A DNA stretch of 64,000 bases, from positions 248,001 to 312,000 of the forward strand of contig NZ_CP046400.1 in NCBI RefSeq assembly GCF_009762795.1, read 5' to 3'. Position numbers and translations under genes: made by a program. Origin of the DNA: Pseudodesulfovibrio cashew (GTDB taxonomy: Bacteria > Desulfobacterota > Desulfovibrionia > Desulfovibrionales > Desulfovibrionaceae). Under the pieces are notes generated by a model, which was not told where the DNA came from, searched no databases, and saw nothing but the letters and a program-made list of their open reading frames with translations. Below, piece after piece: positions 43,406-55,908 of this stretch (position 1 is its first letter; each line of letters opens with the position of its first letter).

Positions 43406-43443
43406 TATAATTGTTGACACAACTTCTACCCTAGTGTTAGGTT
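43406..43443 (+). promoter_or_regulatory. Candidate promoters of the aromatic leader
   Basis: A perfect TATAAT (43406-43411) and, just downstream, a perfect TTGACA (43414-43419) followed 18 bases later by TAGGTT (43438-43443). Either could start the leader transcript. With the first, transcription begins near 43418, 35 bases before the leader start codon; with the second, almost at it. Confidence 0.5.
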
Positions 43444-43452
43444 CCCTTCACC

Positions 43453-43548
43453 ATGAAGTTTAACACCTCTCTACCCGCATACTTTACCAACTTTTATTTT
43501 GGCTACTGGTATTCCCGCGCTCGCGGTCAGGGGAGAGGTACACTGTAA
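43453..43548 (+). CDS. Aromatic-rich leader peptide (attenuator) of the aro/trp block
   Basis: A 31-codon frame starting ATG and ending TAA. Its centre reads AYFTNFYFGYWYS: in 13 residues there are three Phe, four Tyr and one Trp, and another Phe is at position 3. A terminator (43583-43619) follows 35 bases after the stop, and the first biosynthetic gene of the aromatic pathway starts 63 bases after that. This is the classic layout of ribosome-mediated attenuation, with stalling at aromatic codons when charged tRNA-Phe, -Tyr or -Trp is scarce. AGAGGT (43534-43539) can pair with ACCTCT (43575-43580) as a possible alternative stem. No strong ribosome binding site is visible. Confidence 0.8.
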   Translation: MKFNTSLPAYFTNFYFGYWYSRARGQGRGTL

Positions 43549-43582
43549 GCAAATGGCTGATTACAACTAAGAAAACCTCTTC

Positions 43583-43619
43583 AAGGGCCGCGGGCGAAAG
43601 CCGGCGGCCCTTGTTTTTT
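43583..43619 (+). terminator. Attenuator terminator before the aromatic pathway genes
   Basis: AAGGGCCGCGGG / CCGGCGGCCCTT with CGAAAG loop, then TTGTTTTTT. It lies between the leader peptide and the ADH synthase gene and can also pair in part with upstream sequence, as an attenuator would. Confidence 0.8.
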
Positions 43620-43681: not shown

Positions 43682-44476
43682 ATGCACATCGGCAAGGCAA
43701 TCAGGCTGGAGAGAATCGTCAACCGCAACACCGGACGCACCATCATCGTTCCCATGGACCACGGCGTGACAGTCGGCCCCATCGACGGGCTGGTGGACAT
43801 GCGCGAGGCCGTTGGGCGGGTCGTCGATGGCGGCGCAAACGCAGTCATCGAGCATAAAGGGCTGGTCCGCTGCGGACACCGCGCCCAGGGCAAGGACATC
43901 GGCCTCATCGTCCACCTGTCCGCGTCCACCACGCTTTCCCCCTTCCCCAACGCAAAATCCCTGGTCGCCAGCGTCGAAGACGCCATCCGCCTGGGAGCTG
44001 ACGCCGTCTCCATTCACTGCAACCTCGGCGACGAAACCGAAGCCGCCATGCTCAGCGACTTCGGCAGGGTGGCCTCCGAAGCCTCCAACTGGGGCATTCC
44101 GCTCCTGTCCATGATCTACGCCCGCGGCCCCAAGGTGAAAGACGAATACGATCCCGAAGTGGTCGCCCACTGCGCCCGCGTCGGCACCGAACTGGGCGCG
44201 GACATCATCAAGGTTCCCTACACCGGCGACATCGACACCTTCGGCAAAGTATGCGACGCCTGTTGTGTACCCGTGGTCATCGCCGGAGGCCCCAAGCTCG
44301 ACAGCACAGAATCTTTCCTCCAGATGGTCCACGACTCTCTGGAAGCCGGCGGCGCGGGCCTCTCTGTCGGTCGAAACGTCTTCCAGCATGACGATCCCAC
44401 CCGCCTGGTGGAGGCCCTGAACATGGTTGTTCACGGCGACGAGTCCGTGGAGACCGCCCTCAACCATCTCAAATAG
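43682..44476 (+). CDS. 2-amino-3,7-dideoxy-D-threo-hept-6-ulosonate (ADH) synthase
   Basis: Archaeal-type entry to the shikimate pathway: an aldolase/transaldolase-like enzyme of the DhnA class I aldolase family that makes ADH, replacing DAHP synthase. The 264-residue TIM barrel shows the opening [29 protein letters not shown], the Lys-bearing IIKVPYTGD (Schiff base) and IAGGPK. GAGGAGAG lies before the ATG. It is immediately followed by dehydroquinate synthase II, the enzyme that uses its product. Alternative assignment: a generic class I fructose-bisphosphate aldolase, made unlikely by the context. Confidence 0.9.
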
Positions 44477-44494
44477 TACATACGGAAACACCCC

Positions 44495-45478
44495 ATGAAA
44501 AAAGTCATCTTCAAATCCGTTCCCTTTGACAAAAAACTCATCACCCTTGCCCTGGAATCGGGCGTGGACGCCGTGATGGTCGAAAAGGACCAGGTCAAGA
44601 ACGTGCAGTCCCTGGGACGCGTCACGGTCATTACCCCTGAAGACATGCCCGTGGTCGAACTGACCAAGAAGGCGGACGAGGACGTGGCCGTCAACAAGAT
44701 CAAGGCCGGCGATAACGTGGCTCTCAAGAAGGGATGGGAGATCATCCCGGTGGAAAACATCCTGGCCCAGGTGGAAAACCTGGCCCTGGAATGCGAGAAC
44801 CTGGACCGCGCCATCCTGGCCGCAGGCATCCTGGAGCGCGGCTGCGACACCATCGTGGTCCTGCCCGAGGGAGCCACCGATCTCAAGCAGATCGTGGCCG
44901 AGCTCAAGCTCTCCCAGGGCAAGCTGGACCTCCAGGCCGCCACGGTCACGGCCATCGAGGCCACCGGCCTGGGCCATCGCGTCTGCGTGGACACCATCTC
45001 CATGCTCAAGCGCGGCCAGGGCATGCTCATCGGCAACTCCTCGGCCTTCTCGTTCCTGGTGCACGCCGAGACCGAGTCCAATCCGTATGTTGCCGCTCGC
45101 CCCTTCCGGGTCAACGCGGGCGCGGTGCACGCCTACGCCCAGATGCCCGGCGACAAAACCACCTACTTGGAAGAGCTGGCCGCCGGCACCGATGTGCTCA
45201 TCGTCGGCGCGGACGGCAACACCAGCCTGGCCACCGTGGGCAGGGTCAAGGTCGAAATCCGGCCCATGCTGCTCATCAAGGCCGAGGTCAAGACCAAGGA
45301 CGGCGTCAAGGCCGGACAGGTCTTCCTCCAGAACGCCGAAACCATCCGCGTGGTCTCCGACAAGGGCGAACCCGTGTCCGTAGTCACCCTCAAGGTGGGC
45401 GACAAGATCATGGTCAAAACCGACGAGGCCGGCCGACACTTCGGCATGCGCATCAAGGAAGAGATCAAGGAAGGATAA
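44495..45478 (+). CDS. 3-Dehydroquinate synthase II
   Basis: NAD-dependent oxidative deamination and cyclisation of ADH to 3-dehydroquinate, the second archaeal-type step. The 327-residue product has the characteristic central region GLGHRVCVDTISMLKRGQGM and SAFSFLVHAETESNPYVA, and a FRVNAGAVHAYA segment, unique to this family and unrelated to classical AroB. It is 18 bases after the ADH synthase gene. Together they mean that erythrose 4-phosphate is not used for aromatic synthesis here. The later shikimate enzymes (aroD, aroE, aroK, aroC) are not in the window. Confidence 0.93.
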   Translation: MKKVIFKSVPFDKKLITLALESGVDAVMVEKDQVKNVQSLGRVTVITPEDMPVVELTKKADEDVAVNKIKAGDNVALKKGWEIIPVENILAQVENLALECENLDRAILAAGILERGCDTIVVLPEGATDLKQIVAELKLSQGKLDLQAATVTAIEATGLGHRVCVDTISMLKRGQGMLIGNSSAFSFLVHAETESNPYVAARPFRVNAGAVHAYAQMPGDKTTYLEELAAGTDVLIVGADGNTSLATVGRVKVEIRPMLLIKAEVKTKDGVKAGQVFLQNAETIRVVSDKGEPVSVVTLKVGDKIMVKTDEAGRHFGMRIKEEIKEG

Positions 45479-45482
45479 GATG

Positions 45483-45610
45483 CCTCCGGCGGCCGGGGGA
45501 AGGGGAGAAGGAAACCCTTTGAGGAGGGTTGTCCCTCTCCCCTTCCCCCGGACCCCCATCCCCTCTCCTTTCCCAAACTTTTTGGCACCGCTTCGCGGGG
45601 TGGGGGATGA
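45483..45610 (-). repeat. Dispersed intergenic element, copy 2 (complete, reversed)
   Basis: On the minus strand the order is GCGAAGCG, AAAAAGTTTGGGA, a G-rich run, an extended stem (CTCCCCTTCCCCCGG at 45538-45552 pairs with CCGGGGGAAGGGGAG at 45493-45507, internal AACCCT/AGGGTT) and CCGCCGGAGGC. Copies or parts recur at 39729, 45681 (opposite strand) and 55021. With 45611-45820 it fills the 342-base gap between dehydroquinate synthase II and pheA, and the stem may act as a terminator. Confidence 0.65.
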
Positions 45611-45680
45611 CATGACGAGGCACGGCTGCAAATTTTGACGGATATGTTAGGCTGGCGGAAATGAACAAGAGACCCGACCC

Positions 45681-45780
45681 GCCGAAGGCGCGTTAAAAAG
45701 TTTAGGAGGGTCCAGGGAACCCTTTACAAAGGGTTCCCTGGCCGTCGGAGACGCCCCGCCGGCGAGGCGCCGCCGGAGGC
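45681..45780 (+). repeat. Dispersed intergenic element, copy 3 (forward)
   Basis: CGAAGGCGCGTTAAAAAG, TTTAGGAGGG, then the perfect stem CCAGGGAACCCTTT / AAAGGGTTCCCTGG (45712-45741), then CCGTCGGAGACGCC and CGCCGGAGGC. It has the same part order as copy 2 in the opposite orientation, so the two form a large imperfect inverted pair. It ends about 40 bases before pheA. Confidence 0.65.
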
Positions 45781-45820
45781 AACCCGCGCAAGCGGCATCC
45801 TGAAGAGAGAGAATAAAGAC

Positions 45821-46921
45821 ATGGCTGACAAGGAACAAAACGACATCCCGGATCTCGGGGAACTGCGCGAGAACATCGACGCCATCGACGATCAGATCGT
45901 GGAGCTGCTGAACAAACGCGCCGAGCAGTCGCTGGGCGTGGGCCGCTACAAGGCGGCCAAGGGCGAGGCCATCTACAAGCCGTTTCGCGAGCAGGAGGTC
46001 CTGAACAAGATCGCCGACTCATCGCCCGGCCCGCTGCCGGACAAGCACCTGCGCACCATCTACCGCGAGATCATGTCCTCCTCGCGCCACCTGCAGCGGC
46101 CGGAGCGCGTGGTCTATCTCGGCCCTCCCGGCACCTTTTCCTATTTTGCGGCCATCGAACACATGGGCAGCTCGGCCTCGCTCACGCCCAAGAGCAATTT
46201 CGAGGAGATCTTCCGCGCCGTGGCCGAAGAGGGAGCGGAACTGGGTGTCATCCCCCTGGAGAACTCCATCGAGGGCACCGTGGGCCAGGTCGTGGACCTG
46301 TTCATGAGATATAAGGTATATATCCAGGCCGAGGTCTTCAGCCGCATCAGCCACAACCTCATTTCCAACGCCACGAGCCTGGAGGACGTGGAGGTCATCT
46401 ACTCCCACCCGCAGCCGCTGGGACAGTGTCGGGAGTGGCTCAAGCACAAGATGCCCGACGTCCCGACCATCTCTACGGAATCCACGGCCGAAGCCGCCGA
46501 GATCGTTTCCGGCAAGAAGGCCGCCGCGGTCATCGGCCACCGCAAACTGGCCGATCTCTACGGCATGAACATCCTGGCCGAGGCCATCGAGGACCAGCCG
46601 GACAACTGGACCCGGTTCCTGATCATCGGCGCGTCCCCCTCCCAGGAGGACCGGCGCGACAAGACAACCATCCTGTTCACCCTGCCGGACAAACCGGGCG
46701 CCCTCGCCCGGGTGCTGACCACCCTGGCCCATCAGTCCATCAACATGACCAAGCTGGAATCCCGCCCGTTCAAGGGCGAAAAATGGAAGTACGTCTTCTT
46801 CGCCGACCTGGAATGCGATTTCGGAGCCGACCGCTACGAAGATGTGCTTGAAGACATCCGGCACCAGTGCCACACGCTCAGGGTGCTCGGGTCCTACCCG
46901 ACCCAGGAGGAAAGACAATGA
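45821..46921 (+). CDS. pheA: Chorismate mutase / prephenate dehydratase
   Basis: Bifunctional enzyme of phenylalanine synthesis. Over 366 residues: AroQ-type chorismate mutase (about 10-90; LRENIDAIDDQIVELLNKRAE), prephenate dehydratase (about 95-275; YLGPPGTFSYFAA, PLENSIEGTVGQ and the catalytic TRF in NWTRFLII), and an ACT domain (about 285-360; GALARVL and LESRP) for feedback by phenylalanine. The ribosome binding site is an AGAGAGA stretch. Its ATGA end is shared with the aroA start. Confidence 0.96.
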   Translation: MADKEQNDIPDLGELRENIDAIDDQIVELLNKRAEQSLGVGRYKAAKGEAIYKPFREQEVLNKIADSSPGPLPDKHLRTIYREIMSSSRHLQRPERVVYLGPPGTFSYFAAIEHMGSSASLTPKSNFEEIFRAVAEEGAELGVIPLENSIEGTVGQVVDLFMRYKVYIQAEVFSRISHNLISNATSLEDVEVIYSHPQPLGQCREWLKHKMPDVPTISTESTAEAAEIVSGKKAAAVIGHRKLADLYGMNILAEAIEDQPDNWTRFLIIGASPSQEDRRDKTTILFTLPDKPGALARVLTTLAHQSINMTKLESRPFKGEKWKYVFFADLECDFGADRYEDVLEDIRHQCHTLRVLGSYPTQEERQ

Positions 46922-48258
46922 TGAAAGAACCGATCCTGATCAACGCACCGGCATCCAAGTCCCTATCCCACCGGACGCTCATCGCGGCTGCGCTGGCCAA
47001 CGGCGTGTCCGAGGTCTCATCGGCCCTGGACTCCGACGACATCACCCGTACGCGCGGCTGCCTCACGGCCTGCGGCGCAACAATCGAGAAAAAGGACGGC
47101 GTACTTGTGGTCACCGGCATGGAAGACGGCCCCAAGGGCGCCAATGCCGACGGCAAGCACAAGGACGAGGAGCCCCACGAACTCTACATGCACGAATCCG
47201 GCACCACCTGCCGGCTGATGACCGCCGTGGCTGCGGCAGGGCATGGCACCTTCCGGGTTCACGGCGCGCCTCGCATGCACGAGCGGCCCATGGGAGAGCT
47301 GACCGGAGCCCTGACGACCCTGGGCTCGAAATTTCAATACGACGGCGAAAAGGGGTTCCTCCCCTTTTTCATGACCAGCAGGGGCTACACCAAGAAATCG
47401 GTGGACATCACCCTGGAGGAAAGCAGCCAATACCTCTCCGGGCTGCTCCTGGGTGCGCCCCTGGCTGGCCACGAAATCACCGTCAACGTCACCGGCAACA
47501 AGGCCGTATCCTGGCCTTACGTAGCCCTGACCCTGCGCATCATGGAGGACTTCAAGGCCGAGTTCGAGGTCCAGCTCAAGAAGAACGGCAAGTGGCAGGC
47601 CGTCCCCTGGCGCTCGGTCAAGGGTGTCACCCCGGGCAAGATCCGCTTCGTGGTACAACCCTCGGGCTACCAGCCCACGAACTACCGCGTGGAAGGCGAC
47701 TGGTCCAACGCCAGCTACTTCCTGGCGGCGGGAGCCGTGGGACGCAACCCGGTGCTGATCAAGGGACTGGCCGCCGATTCCCTCCAGGGAGACCGCGCCA
47801 TCATGGACATCCTGAGCCAGATGGGCGCGTCCATCCAGGTCACCTTTGACGGCATCCTGGTCGTGCCCGCCCCCCTGCGCGGCATCACCGTCGACATGAG
47901 CCGCTGCCCGGACCTGGTGCCCACCGTGGCCGCGGCCGCGGCCTTCGCGTCCACGCCGACCACCATCGAAAACGTGGCGCACCTGCGCATCAAGGAGACC
48001 GACCGGCTGGCGGCCTGCGCCGAGGAAGTGGCCCGGACCAGGACCGACACGTCCATCGTCGGCGATTCGCTGATCATCCGCCCCGGCGCCCTGCCCAGGG
48101 GGGAGACCATCGCCTTCAAGACGTACAATGACCACCGCATGGCCATGTCCATGTCCCTGTTTTCCCTTGCCGGAATGGACGTCGAGCTTGACAATCCCGC
48201 CTGTGTGGGCAAATCATTTCCCGGCTTCTGGGATGAATGGAAAAAGATCACCGGCTAG
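46918..48258 (+). CDS. aroA: 3-Phosphoshikimate 1-carboxyvinyltransferase (EPSP synthase)
   Basis: Joins phosphoshikimate and PEP to EPSP, the sixth shikimate step. The 446-residue double-domain protein has NAPASKSLSHR at the N terminus, GTTCRLM (the usual GNAGTxxR region is degenerate), HERPMGELTGAL (the RPMxPL-like motif) and the C-terminal RIKETDRLAA and TYNDHRMAMS. The start is at 46918 with AGGAGGAAAG upstream, overlapping the pheA stop by four bases. The low similarity in the first motifs suggests a divergent, possibly glyphosate-tolerant class; that is an inference. Confidence 0.92.
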   Translation: MMKEPILINAPASKSLSHRTLIAAALANGVSEVSSALDSDDITRTRGCLTACGATIEKKDGVLVVTGMEDGPKGANADGKHKDEEPHELYMHESGTTCRLMTAVAAAGHGTFRVHGAPRMHERPMGELTGALTTLGSKFQYDGEKGFLPFFMTSRGYTKKSVDITLEESSQYLSGLLLGAPLAGHEITVNVTGNKAVSWPYVALTLRIMEDFKAEFEVQLKKNGKWQAVPWRSVKGVTPGKIRFVVQPSGYQPTNYRVEGDWSNASYFLAAGAVGRNPVLIKGLAADSLQGDRAIMDILSQMGASIQVTFDGILVVPAPLRGITVDMSRCPDLVPTVAAAAAFASTPTTIENVAHLRIKETDRLAACAEEVARTRTDTSIVGDSLIIRPGALPRGETIAFKTYNDHRMAMSMSLFSLAGMDVELDNPACVGKSFPGFWDEWKKITG

Positions 48259-48294: not shown

Positions 48295-49065
48295 ATGACC
48301 GAACCAGCCCTTAAACATATCGCCATCGCCGGAGCCAACGGCTCCATGGGAGCGCTCTTCCTGGAGCGTTTCCCGGAGGCGGGGTGTTCCGTTGTCGGGC
48401 TGGCGCGTCCGTACACGGAGGACAAGCTCCGCGAGGCGCTGTCCGAATGCGACATGCTCATGGTCTGCGTGCCGGTCACGGTCATGGCGGATGTCGTGCA
48501 AACCATGCGCCCGTACCTGCCCGAGGGGTGCATCCTGGCCGACGTGGGTTCGGTCAAGGAAGGTCCCATGCGGGCCATGCTCGAAAACTACGACGGCCCG
48601 GTGGTGGGCACCCACCCGCTATTCGGCCCGGTCATTCCCGACGGCTTCCTGCCCAAGACGGCCATCGTGCCCGGCAGGGAGAGCGACAAGGAGGCGGCGG
48701 AGAAGGTCTACTCCCTCTTCGAAGCCTGCGACTACGATCCGTTCATGACCACCGCCGAAGAGCACGACCGGGCCATGGCCTTCATCCAGGGCCTCAACTT
48801 TACGTCCACCGTGGCCTTCCTGGCCGCCACCAGGGACGTCCAATCCATCAAGAATTTCGTTACGCCATCGTTCAAGCGCAGGCTGGATGCGGCACGCAAG
48901 ATGTTGACCATGGACACGGAGCTCTTCGAGACCATCTCCGAGGCCAACCCCTACCTGCAGGAATCCAACCGCAAGTTCATGACGTACCTTAGCCTGGCTG
49001 CCGGCGGCGACCTCGAGTTGCTCTCCAACCGGGCCAAGTGGTGGTGGAACAGAAACATTCGTTAA
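48295..49065 (+). CDS. tyrA: Prephenate dehydrogenase
   Basis: NAD(P)-dependent enzyme of tyrosine synthesis. The 256-residue protein has a nucleotide-binding IAIAGANGSMGALF, a second strand VCVPVTVM, VGSVKEGP and the catalytic/substrate segment GTHPLFGP. It lacks an ACT or chorismate mutase domain; the mutase is supplied by PheA. It is short compared with E. coli TyrA because of this. It lies 36 bases after aroA and is followed by a strong terminator, which separates the aro and trp parts. Confidence 0.92.
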   Translation: MTEPALKHIAIAGANGSMGALFLERFPEAGCSVVGLARPYTEDKLREALSECDMLMVCVPVTVMADVVQTMRPYLPEGCILADVGSVKEGPMRAMLENYDGPVVGTHPLFGPVIPDGFLPKTAIVPGRESDKEAAEKVYSLFEACDYDPFMTTAEEHDRAMAFIQGLNFTSTVAFLAATRDVQSIKNFVTPSFKRRLDAARKMLTMDTELFETISEANPYLQESNRKFMTYLSLAAGGDLELLSNRAKWWWNRNIR

Positions 49066-49107
49066 GGGGTGCGGCGCTTGCCTGCACACGGATCACGGTA
49101 TTTGACC

Positions 49108-49145
49108 GAGGCCGCACCCCAAACGGGAGCGGCCTCATTTTTTTT
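49108..49145 (+). terminator. Intrinsic terminator after tyrA
   Basis: GAGGCCGC / GCGGCCTC with a long loop, then A and eight T. Upstream GGGGTGCGGC can pair with the loop, so the structure may have alternative forms. Confidence 0.85.
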
Positions 49146-49249
49146 GAGGAGGACCAATGAAATTTACCTGAAAGTCGTATGAAAACCGGAAGAAGATAAA
49201 AGGCTGGGAAGTTATTCCCCGCCCATACCATTAAAAGAAATCACAGCGG

Positions 49250-49364: not shown

Positions 49365-50822
49365 ATGAATAAAATTTTACTGACGCAACACGGGAAATGG
49401 CTCCCGGCCGATGTCCAGACGACCATCAGTCTGTACATGGGACTGGTGGGAGACCAGCCGGGAATCCTCCTGGAATCGGCGGAAGTCGACGGACGGCTCG
49501 GACGCTACAGCCTCCTTGCCTGGGATTACCGGCTCACCCTGCATCCGGTGGACGGCAAGTTGGTGGTGGACACCGAAGATGAACGCCTCCTCCCCCTCAA
49601 GGACCTCCAGGGCATGGACTACCTGCCCGGCATAAAAGAGGTCGTCAAACGCCTCTCCATCGAACAGCAGGCCGAAGGCGGCAACTCGCGCGACGGCCTG
49701 CCCGGCCTGACTCGGGGCCTCTACGGCTACTTCGGCTACGGCGTGGCCGGCATGTTCGAGCGCAAGCTCAAGGACGTGTGCAGGCCCGAGGACGCCGAGG
49801 CGTGCCTGGTCCTGCCCGGCCAGATGGTCCTCTTCGACCACCTCCGCCACTCCTGCTGCTACCTGAGCCTGGATGAAGGCGCCACGCCCACGCCCGCGCC
49901 CGTGCAATGGGGCGCGGACCTCACCGCTCCCGAGGCCGGGACGCCCACGGTCCACCCTGGCAAGGAGGAGTACATGGCAGGCGTGGAGAAGTGCAAGGAG
50001 CTCATCGCCGAGGGCGAGTGCATCCAGGTGGTCCTCTCCACCCGCTTCACCATGCCGGTGCCGGACGATCCGTTCAAGATCTACCGGCGGCTGCGGCAGG
50101 CCAACCCCTCCCCGTTCATGTTCTACATGAAATTCCCGGACTGCGTGTCCAAGGGCAAATCCTGCGGCACCACCCTGCTCGGCTCCTCGCCCGAGATGAT
50201 GGTCCGCTCCGCCGCCGGACAGCTGGAAGTGCGTCCCATCGCGGGCACCCGCTGGAGGGGCGAGACCGAGAAGGAGGACATGCGCCTGGAGAATGAACTC
50301 CTGGCCGATCCCAAGGAACGCGCCGAGCACGTCATGCTCGTGGACCTGGGCCGGAACGACCTGGGCCGCATCGCCAAGCCCGGCTCGGTCACCGTGGAGA
50401 AATTCATGAACGTGGAGCGGTTCTCCCACGTCATGCACCTGACCTCCTACGTGGAGGCCGAGCTCAAGGACGGGCTGGACGGCGTGGACGTGCTCCAGGC
50501 CACTTTCCCGGCGGGCACCCTCTCCGGCGCGCCCAAGATCAGGGCCATGGAGATCATAGCCGACCTGGAACCCCAGGATCGCGGCCCCTATGGCGGCTGC
50601 ATAGGTTGGATGGGACTGGACGACGGCGTGGTCAGTCTGGATACGGGCATCACCATCCGCTCCATGTGGATTCGCGACGGCATCTGCCACTGGCAGGCCG
50701 GGGCCGGGATCGTCTACGATTCCAACGCCGAAGCCGAATGGAACGAATGCCACAACAAGGCCCGCGTCATCCTCGAAGTCATCACCGGTAAAGGAGGCAC
50801 CGATGTTTTTGCTGATAGATAA
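49365..50822 (+). CDS. trpE: Anthranilate synthase component I
   Basis: Converts chorismate to anthranilate using ammonia from TrpG. The 485-residue protein keeps the feedback motif LLES near residue 35, and the catalytic core has VVLSTRF, RPIAGTRWRGE (Trp at the usual Pro), ELLADPKERAEHVMLVDLGRNDLG and the TFPAGTLSGAPKIRAME end. Ribosome binding site AAAGGA. It overlaps trpG by 20 bases, typical for stoichiometric subunits. First gene of the complete trp operon. Confidence 0.96.
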   Translation: MNKILLTQHGKWLPADVQTTISLYMGLVGDQPGILLESAEVDGRLGRYSLLAWDYRLTLHPVDGKLVVDTEDERLLPLKDLQGMDYLPGIKEVVKRLSIEQQAEGGNSRDGLPGLTRGLYGYFGYGVAGMFERKLKDVCRPEDAEACLVLPGQMVLFDHLRHSCCYLSLDEGATPTPAPVQWGADLTAPEAGTPTVHPGKEEYMAGVEKCKELIAEGECIQVVLSTRFTMPVPDDPFKIYRRLRQANPSPFMFYMKFPDCVSKGKSCGTTLLGSSPEMMVRSAAGQLEVRPIAGTRWRGETEKEDMRLENELLADPKERAEHVMLVDLGRNDLGRIAKPGSVTVEKFMNVERFSHVMHLTSYVEAELKDGLDGVDVLQATFPAGTLSGAPKIRAMEIIADLEPQDRGPYGGCIGWMGLDDGVVSLDTGITIRSMWIRDGICHWQAGAGIVYDSNAEAEWNECHNKARVILEVITGKGGTDVFADR

Positions 50823-51375
50823 TTTCGACTCCTTTACGTTCAACCTGGTCCAAGCCTTCCAGCAACTGGGGGCCGATCCCACGGTCATCCGCAACGACCG
50901 GGAAGAGGTCCTGGAGCTGGCTGAATCGGGCAAGCTGACGCGAGTATGCCTCTCGCCCGGCCCTTCCAACCCGGAGAACGCGGGCTACTGCCTGGAGTTC
51001 CTGGCGCGGCTGCCCAAGGAAATCCCGGTGCTGGGCGTCTGCCTCGGACACCAGACCCTCGGCCACTTCGCCGGGGCTCCTGTCCGGCGCGCCGACCGCA
51101 TCATGCACGGCAAGACCTCCGAGGTGTACCACGAGGGCAAGGGTGTGTTCGCAGGGCTGGATTCCCCGTTCACCGTCTGCCGCTACCACTCCCTGGTGGT
51201 TCCGGCCGAGCTGGCCCCGGACCTCTTGGAAGTCACGGCCCGCACCGACCGCGACGAGGTCATGGGCATCCAGTACAAGGACCGCCCGTGGCATGGCGTG
51301 CAGTTCCACCCGGAATCCATCCTCACGCCCCAAGGCCCCAAGCTGTTGCAAAACTTCCTGAACATCAAAGGATAA
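50803..51375 (+). CDS. trpG: Anthranilate synthase component II (glutamine amidotransferase)
   Basis: Class I glutamine amidotransferase that supplies ammonia to TrpE. Over 190 residues: LLIDNFDSFTFNLVQ at the start, the oxyanion-hole segment SPGPSNPENAG, the nucleophile in GVCLGHQ and the His-Glu pair in GVQFHPESI. AAAGGAGG precedes the ATG inside the end of trpE. No fused phosphoribosyltransferase, unlike E. coli TrpGD. Confidence 0.96.
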   Translation: MFLLIDNFDSFTFNLVQAFQQLGADPTVIRNDREEVLELAESGKLTRVCLSPGPSNPENAGYCLEFLARLPKEIPVLGVCLGHQTLGHFAGAPVRRADRIMHGKTSEVYHEGKGVFAGLDSPFTVCRYHSLVVPAELAPDLLEVTARTDRDEVMGIQYKDRPWHGVQFHPESILTPQGPKLLQNFLNIKG

Positions 51376-51379
51376 GATC

Positions 51380-52387
51380 ATGACCGTACCTGAAATTCTT
51401 GAAATACTGGCCCAGGGGAAAGCACTGACCGACCAGCAGGCCGACTTCATGTTCGGCAAGCTCATGGAAGGCGAACTGACCGAAGGACAGACCGGCGCCC
51501 TGCTCATGGGCATTCGCGCCAAGGGCGAGGACTCCACCGACCTGGCCGCGGGTGTCCGCGCCGTGGTCACGCATGCCCGGAAGATTCCCGGCTATGACGG
51601 CGAACGCTCTGAACCGGTCATCGACACCTGCGGCACGGGCGGAGACGGCCAGTGCAGCTTCAACAACTCCACGGCGGTCTCCCTGTTCCTGGCGGACATG
51701 GGCTACACCGTGGCCAAGCACGGCAACCGCGCCCTGTCCTCTTCCTGCGGTTCGGCTGACGCGCTCGAAGCCCTGGGCATCCCCCTTGAGCAGACCCCGG
51801 AAGAGGCGGCGGCAGGACTGGACAAGTACAACTTCGCCTTCCTGTTCGCCCCGGCCTACCATCCGGCCTTCAAGTTCGTCATGCCGGTGCGGCAGCAGCT
51901 CGGCATTCGGACCCTGTTCAACTTCATGGGACCGCTGACCAACCCGGCGCGCCCCTCGCACCAGCTCATCGGCGTAGGCGACCCGGAAAGGCTCCACCTC
52001 ATGGGTGAAACCCTGCTGCTCACCGGTGTCAAACGGGCCCTCATTTTCTCGGGCGCGGGCGGCTTCGACGAGCTGACCACCTGGGGCGTAAACCGAGGCT
52101 ATGTCATCAAGGACGGCGTCATGGAAAAGATCGCCGTCGACCCGGCCAGCCTCGGCTTCGAAGCGCACCGCCCAGAGGACGTGGTAGTGAACGGCAAGGA
52201 CGACGCCGTGGAAAAACTCAAGGCCATCCTGGCCGGAGACGGGCCTGCTGCCATGATGGACATGGTGGCCCTGAATCTGGCAGGGTGCCTCCATCTCCTC
52301 GACGAGGGCTCCCTGGCCGAGTGCGCCGCCAAGGCCCGCGACGTCGTGAAAAACGGACTGCAAAAAGGAATCCCCTATGTTGGATAA
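51380..52387 (+). CDS. trpD: Anthranilate phosphoribosyltransferase
   Basis: Transfers phosphoribosyl from PRPP to anthranilate. The 335-residue protein has the signature DTCGTGGDG (PRPP-binding glycine loop), FNNSTA, KHGNRALSS and the NFMGPLTNP segment. It is four bases after trpG, and its end overlaps trpC by 11 bases, so translation is coupled. Confidence 0.96.
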   Translation: MTVPEILEILAQGKALTDQQADFMFGKLMEGELTEGQTGALLMGIRAKGEDSTDLAAGVRAVVTHARKIPGYDGERSEPVIDTCGTGGDGQCSFNNSTAVSLFLADMGYTVAKHGNRALSSSCGSADALEALGIPLEQTPEEAAAGLDKYNFAFLFAPAYHPAFKFVMPVRQQLGIRTLFNFMGPLTNPARPSHQLIGVGDPERLHLMGETLLLTGVKRALIFSGAGGFDELTTWGVNRGYVIKDGVMEKIAVDPASLGFEAHRPEDVVVNGKDDAVEKLKAILAGDGPAAMMDMVALNLAGCLHLLDEGSLAECAAKARDVVKNGLQKGIPYVG

Positions 52388-53147
52388 ATTCAGAGAGGCC
52401 AAGCAGCTCGAGATCGAGTCGCTGCGCAAGGACTTTGCGGAAGGCCGCATCCCCGCCGCCTACCAGGGCGAGCGCCCCTCGTTCGTGGACGCCATCCGGG
52501 CCAAGGGTCCGGGCGCGATCATCGCCGAATTCAAGCCGGCCAGCCCGTCCAAGGGCGTACTCGGCGAGAACCTCAACCCACTCGACTGGGCCGAGACCTA
52601 CGCAAAGAACGGGGCCGCCGCCATCTCCGTGCTCACCGAGCACAAGTACTTCAAGGGCACCCCGGACTTCCTGTTCATGATGAACGGCCCGGGCGTCCCC
52701 CTGCTGCGCAAGGACTTCATATTCGACCCGCTCCAGGTGGCCATGACCGCGTCCAGTCCGGCCTCGGCAATGCTGCTCATCGCGCGCATGTGCGACGACG
52801 CCGCCCACCTGCGCCAACTGATCGAAATCGCCCGCATGCCCGGCCTTGCCCCGGTGGTGGAGATCTTCGACCAGGCCGACCTGGACATGGCCCGCGAAGC
52901 CGGAGCCGACATCATCCAGGTCAACAACCGCGACCTGGACACCCTGCAGGTGACCCTGGACCAGGCCCGCAAGTTCATCACCCAGAAGAAAGAGGGCGAA
53001 CTGTGGATCTGCGCCAGCGGCGTGAACGAACGTGCCGAGGTGGAGGAAATGGCCTCCCTCGGGTATGACGCCGTGCTCATCGGCACCAGCCTGATGCGGG
53101 CCGAAAACCCCGGCGAGAAGCTCGCCGAACTGACGGGAGCAAAGTAA
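52377..53147 (+). CDS. trpC: Indole-3-glycerol-phosphate synthase
   Basis: Ring closure to indole-3-glycerol phosphate. The 256-residue TIM barrel shows IAEFKPASPSKG with the catalytic Lys, AISVLTEHKYFKG, LLRKDFIFDP, VEIFDQADL, QVNNRDLDTL and CASGVNERAEV at successive strands. It is a stand-alone enzyme, with trpF as a separate gene next to it. It overlaps trpD at its start. Confidence 0.96.
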   Translation: MLDKFREAKQLEIESLRKDFAEGRIPAAYQGERPSFVDAIRAKGPGAIIAEFKPASPSKGVLGENLNPLDWAETYAKNGAAAISVLTEHKYFKGTPDFLFMMNGPGVPLLRKDFIFDPLQVAMTASSPASAMLLIARMCDDAAHLRQLIEIARMPGLAPVVEIFDQADLDMAREAGADIIQVNNRDLDTLQVTLDQARKFITQKKEGELWICASGVNERAEVEEMASLGYDAVLIGTSLMRAENPGEKLAELTGAK

Positions 53148-53148
53148 A

Positions 53149-53778
53149 ATGCCACGTCCCCTGGTCAAGGTCTGCGGAATGACCCGCATGGAAGACGTCA
53201 GGCTCTGCGTGGAGCTGGGCGTGGACCTGCTCGGGTTCATCTTCCACCCCAAAAGCCCGCGCAACGTGGACCCGGCCTTTGCGGCCTCGGTTAAGACGGG
53301 CAAGACCACCAAGGTCGGCCTGTTCGTCAACCAGACGGCCGACGAGGTCATCGAGATCATGGACCGCTGCGGCCTGCACGCGGCCCAGCTGCACGGCGGG
53401 CAGGACCGCGCCTTCTGCGAGAAGGTCGGCCCGGACCGGGTAATCAAGGTCTTCTGGCCCGACACCTACGCCTCGCCTGTGGCACTGGCCCGGGATCTGG
53501 ATGCCTACGCAGAGGTCTGCGGCCACTTCCTGTTCGACGCAGGCAAGACAGGCCAGGGCGGAACCGGCACGACGATCAACTTTGCATCACTGCAAGGCAT
53601 TGAAATACATACACCCTGGTTCATTGCAGGTGGCATCGGCCCCGATAATGTCGACCAGGTGCTGGCCCTCAACCCTCCGGGTATCGACATCAACTCCGGA
53701 GTGGAGAGTGCGCCCGGCATCAAGGACGCTGCCAAGCTCAGGGCGGTCTTCGACCGGCTCGAGGCAATGGACGACTAG
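53149..53778 (+). CDS. trpF: Phosphoribosylanthranilate isomerase
   Basis: Amadori rearrangement of phosphoribosylanthranilate. The 209-residue TIM barrel starts VKVCGMTRMEDV (with the catalytic Cys), continues with FHPKSPRNV, GLFVNQTADEV, QLHGGQD, LFDAGKTGQGGTGTT and IAGGIGPDNV (catalytic Asp and the phosphate site), and ends DINSGVESAPGIKD. It follows trpC after one base. Confidence 0.96.
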   Translation: MPRPLVKVCGMTRMEDVRLCVELGVDLLGFIFHPKSPRNVDPAFAASVKTGKTTKVGLFVNQTADEVIEIMDRCGLHAAQLHGGQDRAFCEKVGPDRVIKVFWPDTYASPVALARDLDAYAEVCGHFLFDAGKTGQGGTGTTINFASLQGIEIHTPWFIAGGIGPDNVDQVLALNPPGIDINSGVESAPGIKDAAKLRAVFDRLEAMDD

Positions 53779-53791
53779 CAAAGCACGAAAA

Positions 53792-53838
53792 GGGCCCCGG
53801 ATCGGGAAGGGAGACGATTCCCTTCCTCCGGGAGGCCC
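53792..53838 (+). other. Stem-loop between trpF and trpB
   Basis: GGGAAGGGA pairs with TTCCCTTCC, flanked by GGGCC / GGCCC, giving a long hairpin just before the trpB ribosome binding site. There is no T-run, so it more likely affects message stability or trpB translation than termination. Confidence 0.55.
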
Positions 53839-53853
53839 AGTAAGGATAGAATC

Positions 53854-55017
53854 ATGAAGAAAGGATACTTCGGCGACTTCGGCGGACAGTTCATTCCCGA
53901 GCTGCTCATGCCGCCGCTCATCGAGCTGGAGCAGGCCATGGAGACCATCCTCCCCACCGAGGAGTTCCAGACCCGCTTCACCCACATGCTCAAGGAAAAC
54001 GTGGGCCGCCCCTCGGCCATCACCTACTGCCCTAACCTGTCCAAGGACCTGGGCCTGGACCTCTGGCTCAAGCGCGAGGACCTCAACCACTCGGGCGCGC
54101 ACAAGATCAACAACACCCTGGGCCAGGGACTGCTGGCCAAGATGATGGGCAAGGACGTGCTCCTGGCCGAGACCGGCGCAGGCATGCACGGCGTTGCCAC
54201 CACCGTGGCCGCAGCCATGCTCGACATGAAGGCCGTCATCTACATGGGCGCCACAGACGTGGTTCGCCAGGCCCCCAACGTGGGCCGCATGCGCCTCATG
54301 GGCGCTGAGATCGTAGCCGTCGAGTCCGGCACCAAAACCCTCAAGGACGCCATCAACGAAGCGCTGCGCCGCTGGCTCTCCGACCAGGAGACCACCCACT
54401 ACTGCTTCGGCACCGCAGCCGGGCCGCACCCCTTCCCCACCCTGGTCCGCGAATTCCAGCAGATCATCTCCAAGGAAGCGCGTCAGCAGTTCATGGACCG
54501 CAACGAGGGCAACCTGCCCGACGTGGTCGTGGCCTGCGTGGGCGGCGGCTCCAACGCCATCGGCATGTTCCACAACTTCGTGCCCGACGAGTCCGTCAAG
54601 ATCGTGGGCGTGGAGGCCGCAGGCACGGGCGAGCCGGGCTGCTACAACTCCGCTCCCCTGGACCGGGGTACCGACGGCGTGCTGCACGGCATGATGACCA
54701 AACTGCTTCAGACGGAAGAGGGCCAGATCCTGCCCTCGCACTCCATCGCCCCCGGCCTGGACTATCCCGGCGTGGGCCCGGAGCATGCGGAGCTGCAAGC
54801 TTGCGGACGAGTGGATTACACGACCATCAACGACGGCCAGGCCATTAACGCCTTCAAGCTGCTGTCCAGGCGGGAAGGTATCATCCCGGCGCTGGAGTCC
54901 TCCCACGCCGTGGCCTACGCCATCGAGAACCGGGAGCAGCTGCAAGGCAAGTCCGTGCTCGTCTGCCTGTCCGGCAGGGGCGACAAGGACCTCGGCATCT
55001 TGGACGAGATTTTGTAG
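53854..55017 (+). CDS. trpB: Tryptophan synthase beta chain
   Basis: PLP enzyme joining indole and serine. The 387-residue protein is the TrpB1 type: GDFGGQFIPELLMPPL, the Schiff-base Lys in HSGAHKINN, AETGAGMHGV, the GGGSNAIGMF phosphate site and the HSIAPGLDYPGVGPEH substrate loop. It is preceded by a stable stem-loop and the binding site AAGGAT. A further copy of the dispersed element lies between it and trpA. Confidence 0.97.
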   Translation: MKKGYFGDFGGQFIPELLMPPLIELEQAMETILPTEEFQTRFTHMLKENVGRPSAITYCPNLSKDLGLDLWLKREDLNHSGAHKINNTLGQGLLAKMMGKDVLLAETGAGMHGVATTVAAAMLDMKAVIYMGATDVVRQAPNVGRMRLMGAEIVAVESGTKTLKDAINEALRRWLSDQETTHYCFGTAAGPHPFPTLVREFQQIISKEARQQFMDRNEGNLPDVVVACVGGGSNAIGMFHNFVPDESVKIVGVEAAGTGEPGCYNSAPLDRGTDGVLHGMMTKLLQTEEGQILPSHSIAPGLDYPGVGPEHAELQACGRVDYTTINDGQAINAFKLLSRREGIIPALESSHAVAYAIENREQLQGKSVLVCLSGRGDKDLGILDEIL

Positions 55018-55020
55018 AGG

Positions 55021-55095
55021 GGCGCCTCCCCCGGCTTCCCATCCCCTTTCCCTTCCCAAAATTCTTGGCGCGCTTCGCGTCGTGAGCGGAGGGAT
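55021..55095 (-). repeat. Dispersed intergenic element, copy 4 (between trpB and trpA)
   Basis: On the minus strand GCGAAGCG, CCAAGAATTTTGGGAAGGG, AAAGGGGATGGG and CCGGGGGAGGC keep the order of the element at 45483-45610. It separates trpB from trpA by 129 bases, an unusually wide gap in an otherwise overlapping operon. Confidence 0.55.
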
Positions 55096-55146
55096 GGCTA
55101 GGAGAGGGGAAAACTACAACGAGTTTTACCTTAGTTGGAGATAGAT

Positions 55147-55908
55147 ATGAATCCTATGCAAGTGAAGATAGAAGAGGCCAAGAGCAAGGGGAAGGTGGGG
55201 TTGATTCCCTTCCTGCCCGCGGGATTCCCGAACAGGGAACAGTTCTGGAAGGAGCTGGAGCAGTTGGACAAGGCCGGGGCATCGGTCATCGAGATCGGCA
55301 TGCCCTTCTCAGACCCCGTGGCCGACGGCCCCGTGGTGGAAAAGGCCTCCCTGAAATGCCTGGAGGACGGCATCAACCTGACCTGGATCTTTGACGGGCT
55401 CAAGGAGCGCAAGGGGCAGTTCAATGCCGCGTTGCTGCTCATGGGCTACCTCAACCCGGTATACCAGTACGGACTGGACAAGTTCGGCGCTGACTGCAAG
55501 GCAGCCGGGGTCTCCGGGCTGATCATCGCGGACATGCCCCTGGAGGAATCCGACTTCGTCAAGGAAGCCATCGAGCCGCACGGTGTGGCCCTGGTCCCGC
55601 TGATCGGGCTGAACACCTCCAAGGAGCGTATGAAACTCTATTCCGACGGCGCTTCCGGCTTCTGCTACTTCGTCTCGGTCCTGGGCACCACGGGCCAGCG
55701 CGAGTCCCTGCCCGCAAAGATCAAGGAGAAGCTCAAGGAGGCCAAGGAGGTCTTCGACATCCCCATCGCCCTGGGCTTCGGCATCAAGCACCCGGACCAG
55801 CTCGCCGAGTTCGAGGGGCTCATGGACGCAGCCGTGTTCGGGTCCGCCCTGATCTCGCATATCGAGGCCGGCAATTCGAGCACACAATTCATGGAGCCAT
55901 GGCAGTAA
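55147..55908 (+). CDS. trpA: Tryptophan synthase alpha chain
   Basis: Splits indole-3-glycerol phosphate into indole and glyceraldehyde 3-phosphate. The 253-residue TIM barrel has LIPFLPAGFPN, the catalytic Glu in VIEIGMPFSDPVADGPV, MGYLNPVYQYG, the catalytic Asp in IIADMPLEE, VLGTTGQR, and GFGIKHPDQ at the phosphate site. The start at 55147 has GGAG 6 bases upstream. Last gene of the trp unit, ended by a bidirectional terminator. Confidence 0.95.
   Translation: MNPMQVKIEEAKSKGKVGLIPFLPAGFPNREQFWKELEQLDKAGASVIEIGMPFSDPVADGPVVEKASLKCLEDGINLTWIFDGLKERKGQFNAALLLMGYLNPVYQYGLDKFGADCKAAGVSGLIIADMPLEESDFVKEAIEPHGVALVPLIGLNTSKERMKLYSDGASGFCYFVSVLGTTGQRESLPAKIKEKLKEAKEVFDIPIALGFGIKHPDQLAEFEGLMDAAVFGSALISHIEAGNSSTQFMEPWQ

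Follow-up and report, generated by a model that had tools for sequence, protein, structure and literature searches.

The aromatic amino acid supraoperon of Pseudodesulfovibrio cashew is very probably governed by two-stage, ribosome-mediated transcription attenuation, with one predicted attenuator ahead of the first structural gene (43414-43619) and another where tyrA gives way to trpE (49039-49145; unless noted, positions refer to the forward strand of the window, that is, the whole 64,000-nucleotide stretch of DNA that was analysed). The locus carries the parts that define attenuators of the trp and phe type, namely a leader open reading frame (ORF) rich in regulatory codons, an intrinsic terminator before the first gene, and a mutually exclusive antiterminator that uses the 5' arm of that terminator. 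Leader translation, stalling, termination and the response to each amino acid are steps that we infer from the sequence.

At the upstream site, an ATG-initiated ORF of 31 codons (43453-43548) reads MKFNTSLPAYFTNFYFGYWYSRARGQGRGTL and ends in a stop codon. Its aromatic codons are numbers 3, 10, 11, 14-16 and 18-20, so that eight of the thirteen residues of AYFTNFYFGYWYS are aromatic, with a further Phe at position 3. Among the roughly 2,590 stop-to-stop segments in the six frames of the 64-kb window, only the leader reached 8/13 aromatic residues, and a single other segment reached 7/13. Downstream lies terminator 1 (43582-43619), composed of a hairpin (43582-43613; CAAGGGCCGCGGGCGAAAGCCGGCGGCCCTTG, about -29 kcal/mol) and the tract TTTTTT. 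The first structural gene (43682-44476) scores above the TIGR01949 cut-off and encodes ADH synthase (aroA'); the ORF with its aromatic run and early Phe, the terminator and the identity of the gene behind it are all as the first-pass annotation had described them. Family models identify the genes that follow as 3-dehydroquinate synthase II (aroB', 44495-45478), chorismate mutase/prephenate dehydratase (pheA, 45821-46921), EPSP synthase (aroA, 46915-48258; TIGR01356, start codon position provisional), prephenate dehydrogenase (tyrA, 48295-49065) and trpE, trpG, trpD, trpC, trpF, trpB and trpA (49365-55908), giving the order aroA'-aroB'-pheA-aroA-tyrA-trpEGDCFBA. The 3-dehydroquinate synthase II shares about 87% identity with those of Pseudodesulfovibrio records. 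The three-way leader is most simply explained by the scope of this operon, which provides for all three aromatic amino acids. The aroB'-pheA gap (45480-45800) is filled by inverted repeats that fold strongly (about -180 kcal/mol for 381 nt), and a weaker structure is present in the trpB-trpA gap (55010-55140).

A location upstream of an amino acid operon would also suit a riboswitch or a T-box in place of a leader read by the ribosome. However, an Rfam scan of the window returned nothing at the curated cut-off for amino acid leader, T-box or riboswitch families, and the element combines two competing helices with a leader that is coding and whose codons suit the operon; we give this alternative a negligible probability.

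To follow the element through relatives, ADH synthase and DHQ synthase II genes were located across the family and the order, and 100 stretches, mostly of operon length, were retrieved. Of the 131 distinct upstream regions from Desulfovibrionales, 128 have an aromatic-rich ATG leader followed by a terminator; the three others (L117, L121 and L128) belong to tandem ADH synthase genes whose retrieved stretches are too short, and a covariance model found the element in genomes G021 and G015. The best leader ORF of each region had 7-12 aromatic residues out of 13 in almost all relatives, as opposed to mostly 2-5 on the reverse strand of the same regions. Phe and Tyr were both encoded in all 128 leaders, and Phe, Tyr and Trp together in 122. 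Terminator 1 is almost invariant (AAGGGCCGC-R-GGC...GCCGGCGGCCCTT) and is more conserved than the role of a mere terminator would require. The pattern expected of a genuine attenuator in the first-pass annotation, an aromatic run and a terminator that are kept while other codons vary, is thus the one seen across Desulfovibrionales (the relatives share ancestry, so these counts are not independent events and p-values are indicative only). Beyond the order, 26 of the 41 Desulfobacterota loci scanned have a leader with at least 6/13 aromatic residues and a terminator before the operon; nine of these 26 leaders are without Trp, and 22 of the 26 passed the antiterminator test. Ahead of its ADH synthase gene, a record labelled as a Deferribacteraceae metagenome-assembled genome (L274) likewise has an aromatic leader (MNLSWSAFFYFFYFSKFLRLRLASG) with a terminator, for which gene transfer or a mislabelled bin may be responsible.

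The leader ORF and the terminator are joined by alternative pairings. Region 2 (CGCTCGCGGTC, 43518-43528) lies within the leader ORF, and region 3 (GGCCGCGGGCG, 43586-43596) can take as its partner either region 2, to form the antiterminator, or region 4, to form the terminator; in the minimum-energy fold, calculated from the window sequence alone, region 1 (the putative protector ACCTCTCTACCC, 43465-43476) can pair with GGGGAGAGGT (43530-43539) if the leader is untranslated. Just past the aromatic run, nearly every sequence has 9-15 leader bases, encoding A-C-G, A-R-G or A-S-G, that form a helix with the 5' arm of the terminator. The central pair of this helix, between the first base of the Cys/Arg/Ser codon and the opposite terminator base, covaries: it is T-A in 62, C-G in 28, T-G in eight and A-T in five sequences (103/103 paired, no mismatch), against a permutation expectation of 76.6 paired and a maximum of 86 in 10,000 permutations, so that a change in the terminator goes along with a change in the residue that follows the aromatic run. 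In a 34-sequence alignment, 94.4% of antiterminator cells were paired, compared with 37-46% when the arms were slid, and the terminator was 99.5% paired; set against 200 dinucleotide shuffles, the antiterminator came among the best 10 in 118 of 128 regions, with a median z of -3.0. The alternative stems for which the first-pass annotation had proposed RNA folding were therefore found, and they covary. Since the core of region 2 ends about 14 nt before the leader stop, a ribosome parked at the stop would cover its flank rather than the core, and masking of region 2 would have to come from the passing ribosome.

The start of the transcript bears on how the leader might be read. A predicted promoter, with TTGACA as -35 (43414-43419) and a weak -10 box, TAGGTT (43438-43443), would place the start at about 43450, beside the leader ATG. 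Among 128 relatives, 96 have TTGAC 36-42 nt 5' of this ATG, and none of the 96 has a Shine-Dalgarno-like motif; in 24 other regions TTGAC lies farther upstream, and 18 of those 24 have such a motif. This pattern points to a leaderless or near-leaderless mRNA as the usual template for leader translation and, from the conservation of the predicted promoter, to a transcript start close to the leader ATG, a reading that rests on the spacing of TTGAC to ATG, the -10 boxes being weak. Rather than downstream of 43548, where the first-pass annotation would have counted a start against the attenuator, the conserved predicted promoter sits 5' of the leader ORF.

These observations also bear on the idea that terminator 1 alone matters, as an ordinary terminator or a site of processing within a long 5' region, with the peptide either untranslated or acting in trans like peTrpL. 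Most leaders are indeed without a Shine-Dalgarno sequence, and trans-acting leader peptides exist (PMC7298713), yet Shine-Dalgarno motifs appear exactly where the promoter is farther upstream, the aromatic codons persist amid variation in the others, the terminator arm and the leader codons covary, and, as described next, the leader codons track gene content. We regard this explanation as very improbable and retain attenuation by a translated leader.

What such a leader would sense can be approached through its codons and their geometry. On average, leaders hold 4.3 Phe, 2.9 Tyr and 1.4 Trp codons, at median distances to region 2 of 22, 19 and 16 nt, respectively; at these distances, a ribosome stalled on Phe, Tyr or Trp codons alike could leave region 2 accessible, while the aromatic codons nearest to it (4-8 nt) may be poor stall sites. 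It is conceivable, though unlikely, that attenuator 1 is real and senses mainly Phe and/or Tyr, with its Trp codons incidental and Trp control left to attenuator 2, given that Trp codons are the fewest, that Trp is missing in six leaders inside the order and many outside it, and that the paralogous elements described below are Phe-rich. Against this, all 67 leaders of operons with trpE have one to three Trp codons, and 33 of them two or three, whereas among the 20 informative operons without trpE five leaders have no Trp codon, 15 have one and none has more (Fisher p = 4e-4, for sequences related by descent). Trp-less Desulfovibrionales leaders belong to operons without trpE, while one genus whose operon has no trpE still keeps a single Trp codon in most of its leaders. 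A median of 16 nt is, in addition, a workable stall distance for Trp. From codons and geometry, sensing of all three amino acids is likely; of the earlier proposal that one mixed leader could read Phe, Tyr and Trp at once, the codons stand (122 of 128 leaders), and the response itself is what we infer from them.

In the first stage of the mechanism that we propose, transcription would begin close to the leader ATG, with a ribosome trailing RNA polymerase through the Phe/Tyr/Trp-rich leader. Shortage of any of the three charged tRNAs would stall this ribosome in the aromatic run with region 2 left free to pair with region 3, terminator 1 would not form, and the operon would be transcribed from ADH synthase onward. 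With all three plentiful, the ribosome would continue through region 2 as far as the stop codon, allowing the terminator to form.

The second stage would depend on a likely internal Trp attenuator before trpE, for which the 3' end of tyrA would serve as the leader. TyrA ends in ...AKWWWNRNIR, with the three Trp codons (TGGTGGTGG) at 49039-49047, and a classical trpL-type ORF was not seen in the translation of the tyrA-trpE gap. Region 2 of this attenuator (GGGGTGCGGCGCTTGC, 49066-49081) comes directly after the tyrA stop, where GGGGTGCGGC forms a helix with the 5' arm of the strong terminator 2 ahead of trpE (49108-49145; a hairpin at 49108-49136 followed by A and T8). The duplex has a calculated energy of -29.1 kcal/mol, and none of 1000 shuffles was as strong. 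A search for ungapped helices gave weak and mixed results because the helices of attenuator 2 contain bulges, and duplex folding against dinucleotide shuffles was used instead; by this measure, the bases after WWW form a helix of unusual strength with the 5' arm of the terminator in 43 of 47 tyrA-trpE arrangements from relatives. All 49 genuine terminator cases have WWW, and where the genes overlap or the terminator is absent the motif is mostly reduced to WW or lost. Two apparent terminators, in L144 and L149, were set aside because overlap of the genes places them inside trpE.

Part of the WW(W) motif probably belongs to TyrA protein structure, since WW near the C-terminus is also kept without a terminator and many genomes keep WWW without trpE. 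Carried further, the same observation, WW(W) in many TyrA proteins with no trpE next to them, would mean that the motif serves the structure of TyrA and that the hairpin ahead of trpE is simply an internal terminator or an element of RNA stability. The unbroken association of WWW with genuine terminators, and the strong helix in all but four of the 47 arrangements, make this quite unlikely in our estimation. Under the attenuation reading, the ribosome finishing tyrA would act as the Trp sensor for trpEGDCFBA: a stall on the three Trp codons would let GGGGTGCGGC engage the 5' arm of terminator 2 and transcription proceed into trpEGDCFBA, so that the trp genes would additionally require Trp shortage. 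The first-pass annotation proposed that the leader could control a large part of the block; the trp genes appear to have, in addition, a second attenuator of their own, which that annotation had not noted.

Between terminator 2 and trpE, a 25-codon frame (49157-49234, forward strand) reads MKFT-TGA-KSYENRKKIKGWEVIPRPYH; its codon 5 is an in-frame TGA that never varies, and it comes with a GAGGAG Shine-Dalgarno-like motif. Across 14 distinct sequences from the genus, 104 changes fall at third codon positions versus 33 and 18 at the others, a predominance that suggests translation past the TGA. A tRNA-Sec is encoded in the genome, but the 14 sequences show no conserved hairpin after the TGA, and a strict pattern search did not detect the frame beyond the genus. 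It is a candidate selenocysteine or read-through micropeptide.

The RNA element of attenuator 1 recurs at other loci. The covariance model matched 143 of 150 Desulfovibrionales genomes, and within the genus there are typically three copies per genome, at the supraoperon, at a second ADH synthase gene, and at a small ORF followed by a sodium:solute symporter; leaders at the last two loci are rich in Phe and almost devoid of Trp. The attenuator predicted before the second ADH synthase gene (loci L002 and L352; G000:C1:2715849-2715950 of the same genome, reverse strand) has a Phe-rich leader, here MHNITARFFFFFSFYFNRNACGLGVH, from which Trp is absent in 16 loci. At the third locus (L004; G000:C1:3054052-3054162, reverse strand), a predicted attenuator with Phe as its only aromatic amino acid, MHINQNRFRFFFFFSFRFFRSACGLGVCA, precedes a 44-residue ORF and the symporter (PF00474) and is conserved in the genus, which makes the latter a probable Phe-regulated transporter. 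A third ADH synthase paralogue (L003) showed no such leader. The two ADH synthase loci resemble differently controlled isozymes of the first step, and the retention of different codons on the same RNA arms, locus by locus, points to selection of codon content for what each locus should sense. We think it reasonably probable that these elements form a nested circuit, in which a three-aromatic leader for the supraoperon and a tyrA-encoded Trp leader would be accompanied by Phe-rich copies on an ADH synthase isozyme and a transporter, a single RNA scaffold being retuned by codons only.

Classical attenuators are best known from enterobacteria and for one amino acid. The trp and pheA leader attenuators of E. 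coli, in which ribosome stalling is the sensor, respond to one amino acid each, and share with the present case a short leader ORF with regulatory codons and competing antiterminator and terminator helices before the first biosynthetic gene; they differ from it in that here the run mixes Phe, Tyr and Trp, region 2 lies inside the ORF, and the start is probably leaderless or nearly so. The E. coli ilvGMEDA and thrABC operons have multivalent attenuators with branched-chain or Thr/Ile codons and likewise mix, in one leader, the codons of several end products, although here the codons correspond to the three aromatic end products of one supraoperon. A putative attenuator leader with Phe-Tyr-Phe has been described for Corynebacterium glutamicum aroF (PMC4046766), again before the gene for the first step of aromatic synthesis, but it has three such residues and no Trp, precedes a DAHP synthase rather than an ADH synthase gene, and bears no sign of common origin. 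The generalization in the first-pass annotation that known attenuators sense a single amino acid is thus too narrow, as the ilv and thr leaders and, putatively, that of aroF (PMC4046766) illustrate.

Closer to the present locus, a 2005 listing taken from a prediction website placed a putative attenuator before aroA'>aroB'>aroQ-pheA>aroF>tyrA>[trp operon] of Desulfovibrio vulgaris (PMC1173090, Table 7). The operon is of the same type and the terminator/antiterminator most likely the same, but the entry is a prediction without leader peptide, aromatic codons or an internal tyrA-trpE attenuator; a 2004 paper on delta-proteobacterial regulation did not treat aromatic genes (PMC545781). For the second site, the nearest parallel is YtgCR of Chlamydia trachomatis, where a WWW motif in a structural gene links Trp supply to trp gene expression (PMC7755916); there a stall promotes termination within the repressor gene, whereas here it is proposed to prevent termination before trpE. 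The literature search, which covered open-licence papers, turned up nothing on a leader for three aromatic amino acids, on its codons, or on a Trp leader encoded within tyrA.

For the biology of these bacteria, the analysis points to a single leader with the codons of all three aromatic amino acids that is conserved through the order and, in a looser form, through Desulfobacterota. Natural losses of trp genes act as experiments on it, as Trp-less leaders within Desulfovibrionales occur only where the operon is without trpE, and because the three copies in the genus combine the same RNA with different codons, specificity is testable by codon swaps alone. The C-terminus of a structural gene may double as a leader peptide, a kind of case for which annotation does not look. 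Finally, regulatory predictions are gained for the ADH (archaeal-type) route to dehydroquinate, along with a probable Phe-regulated transporter.
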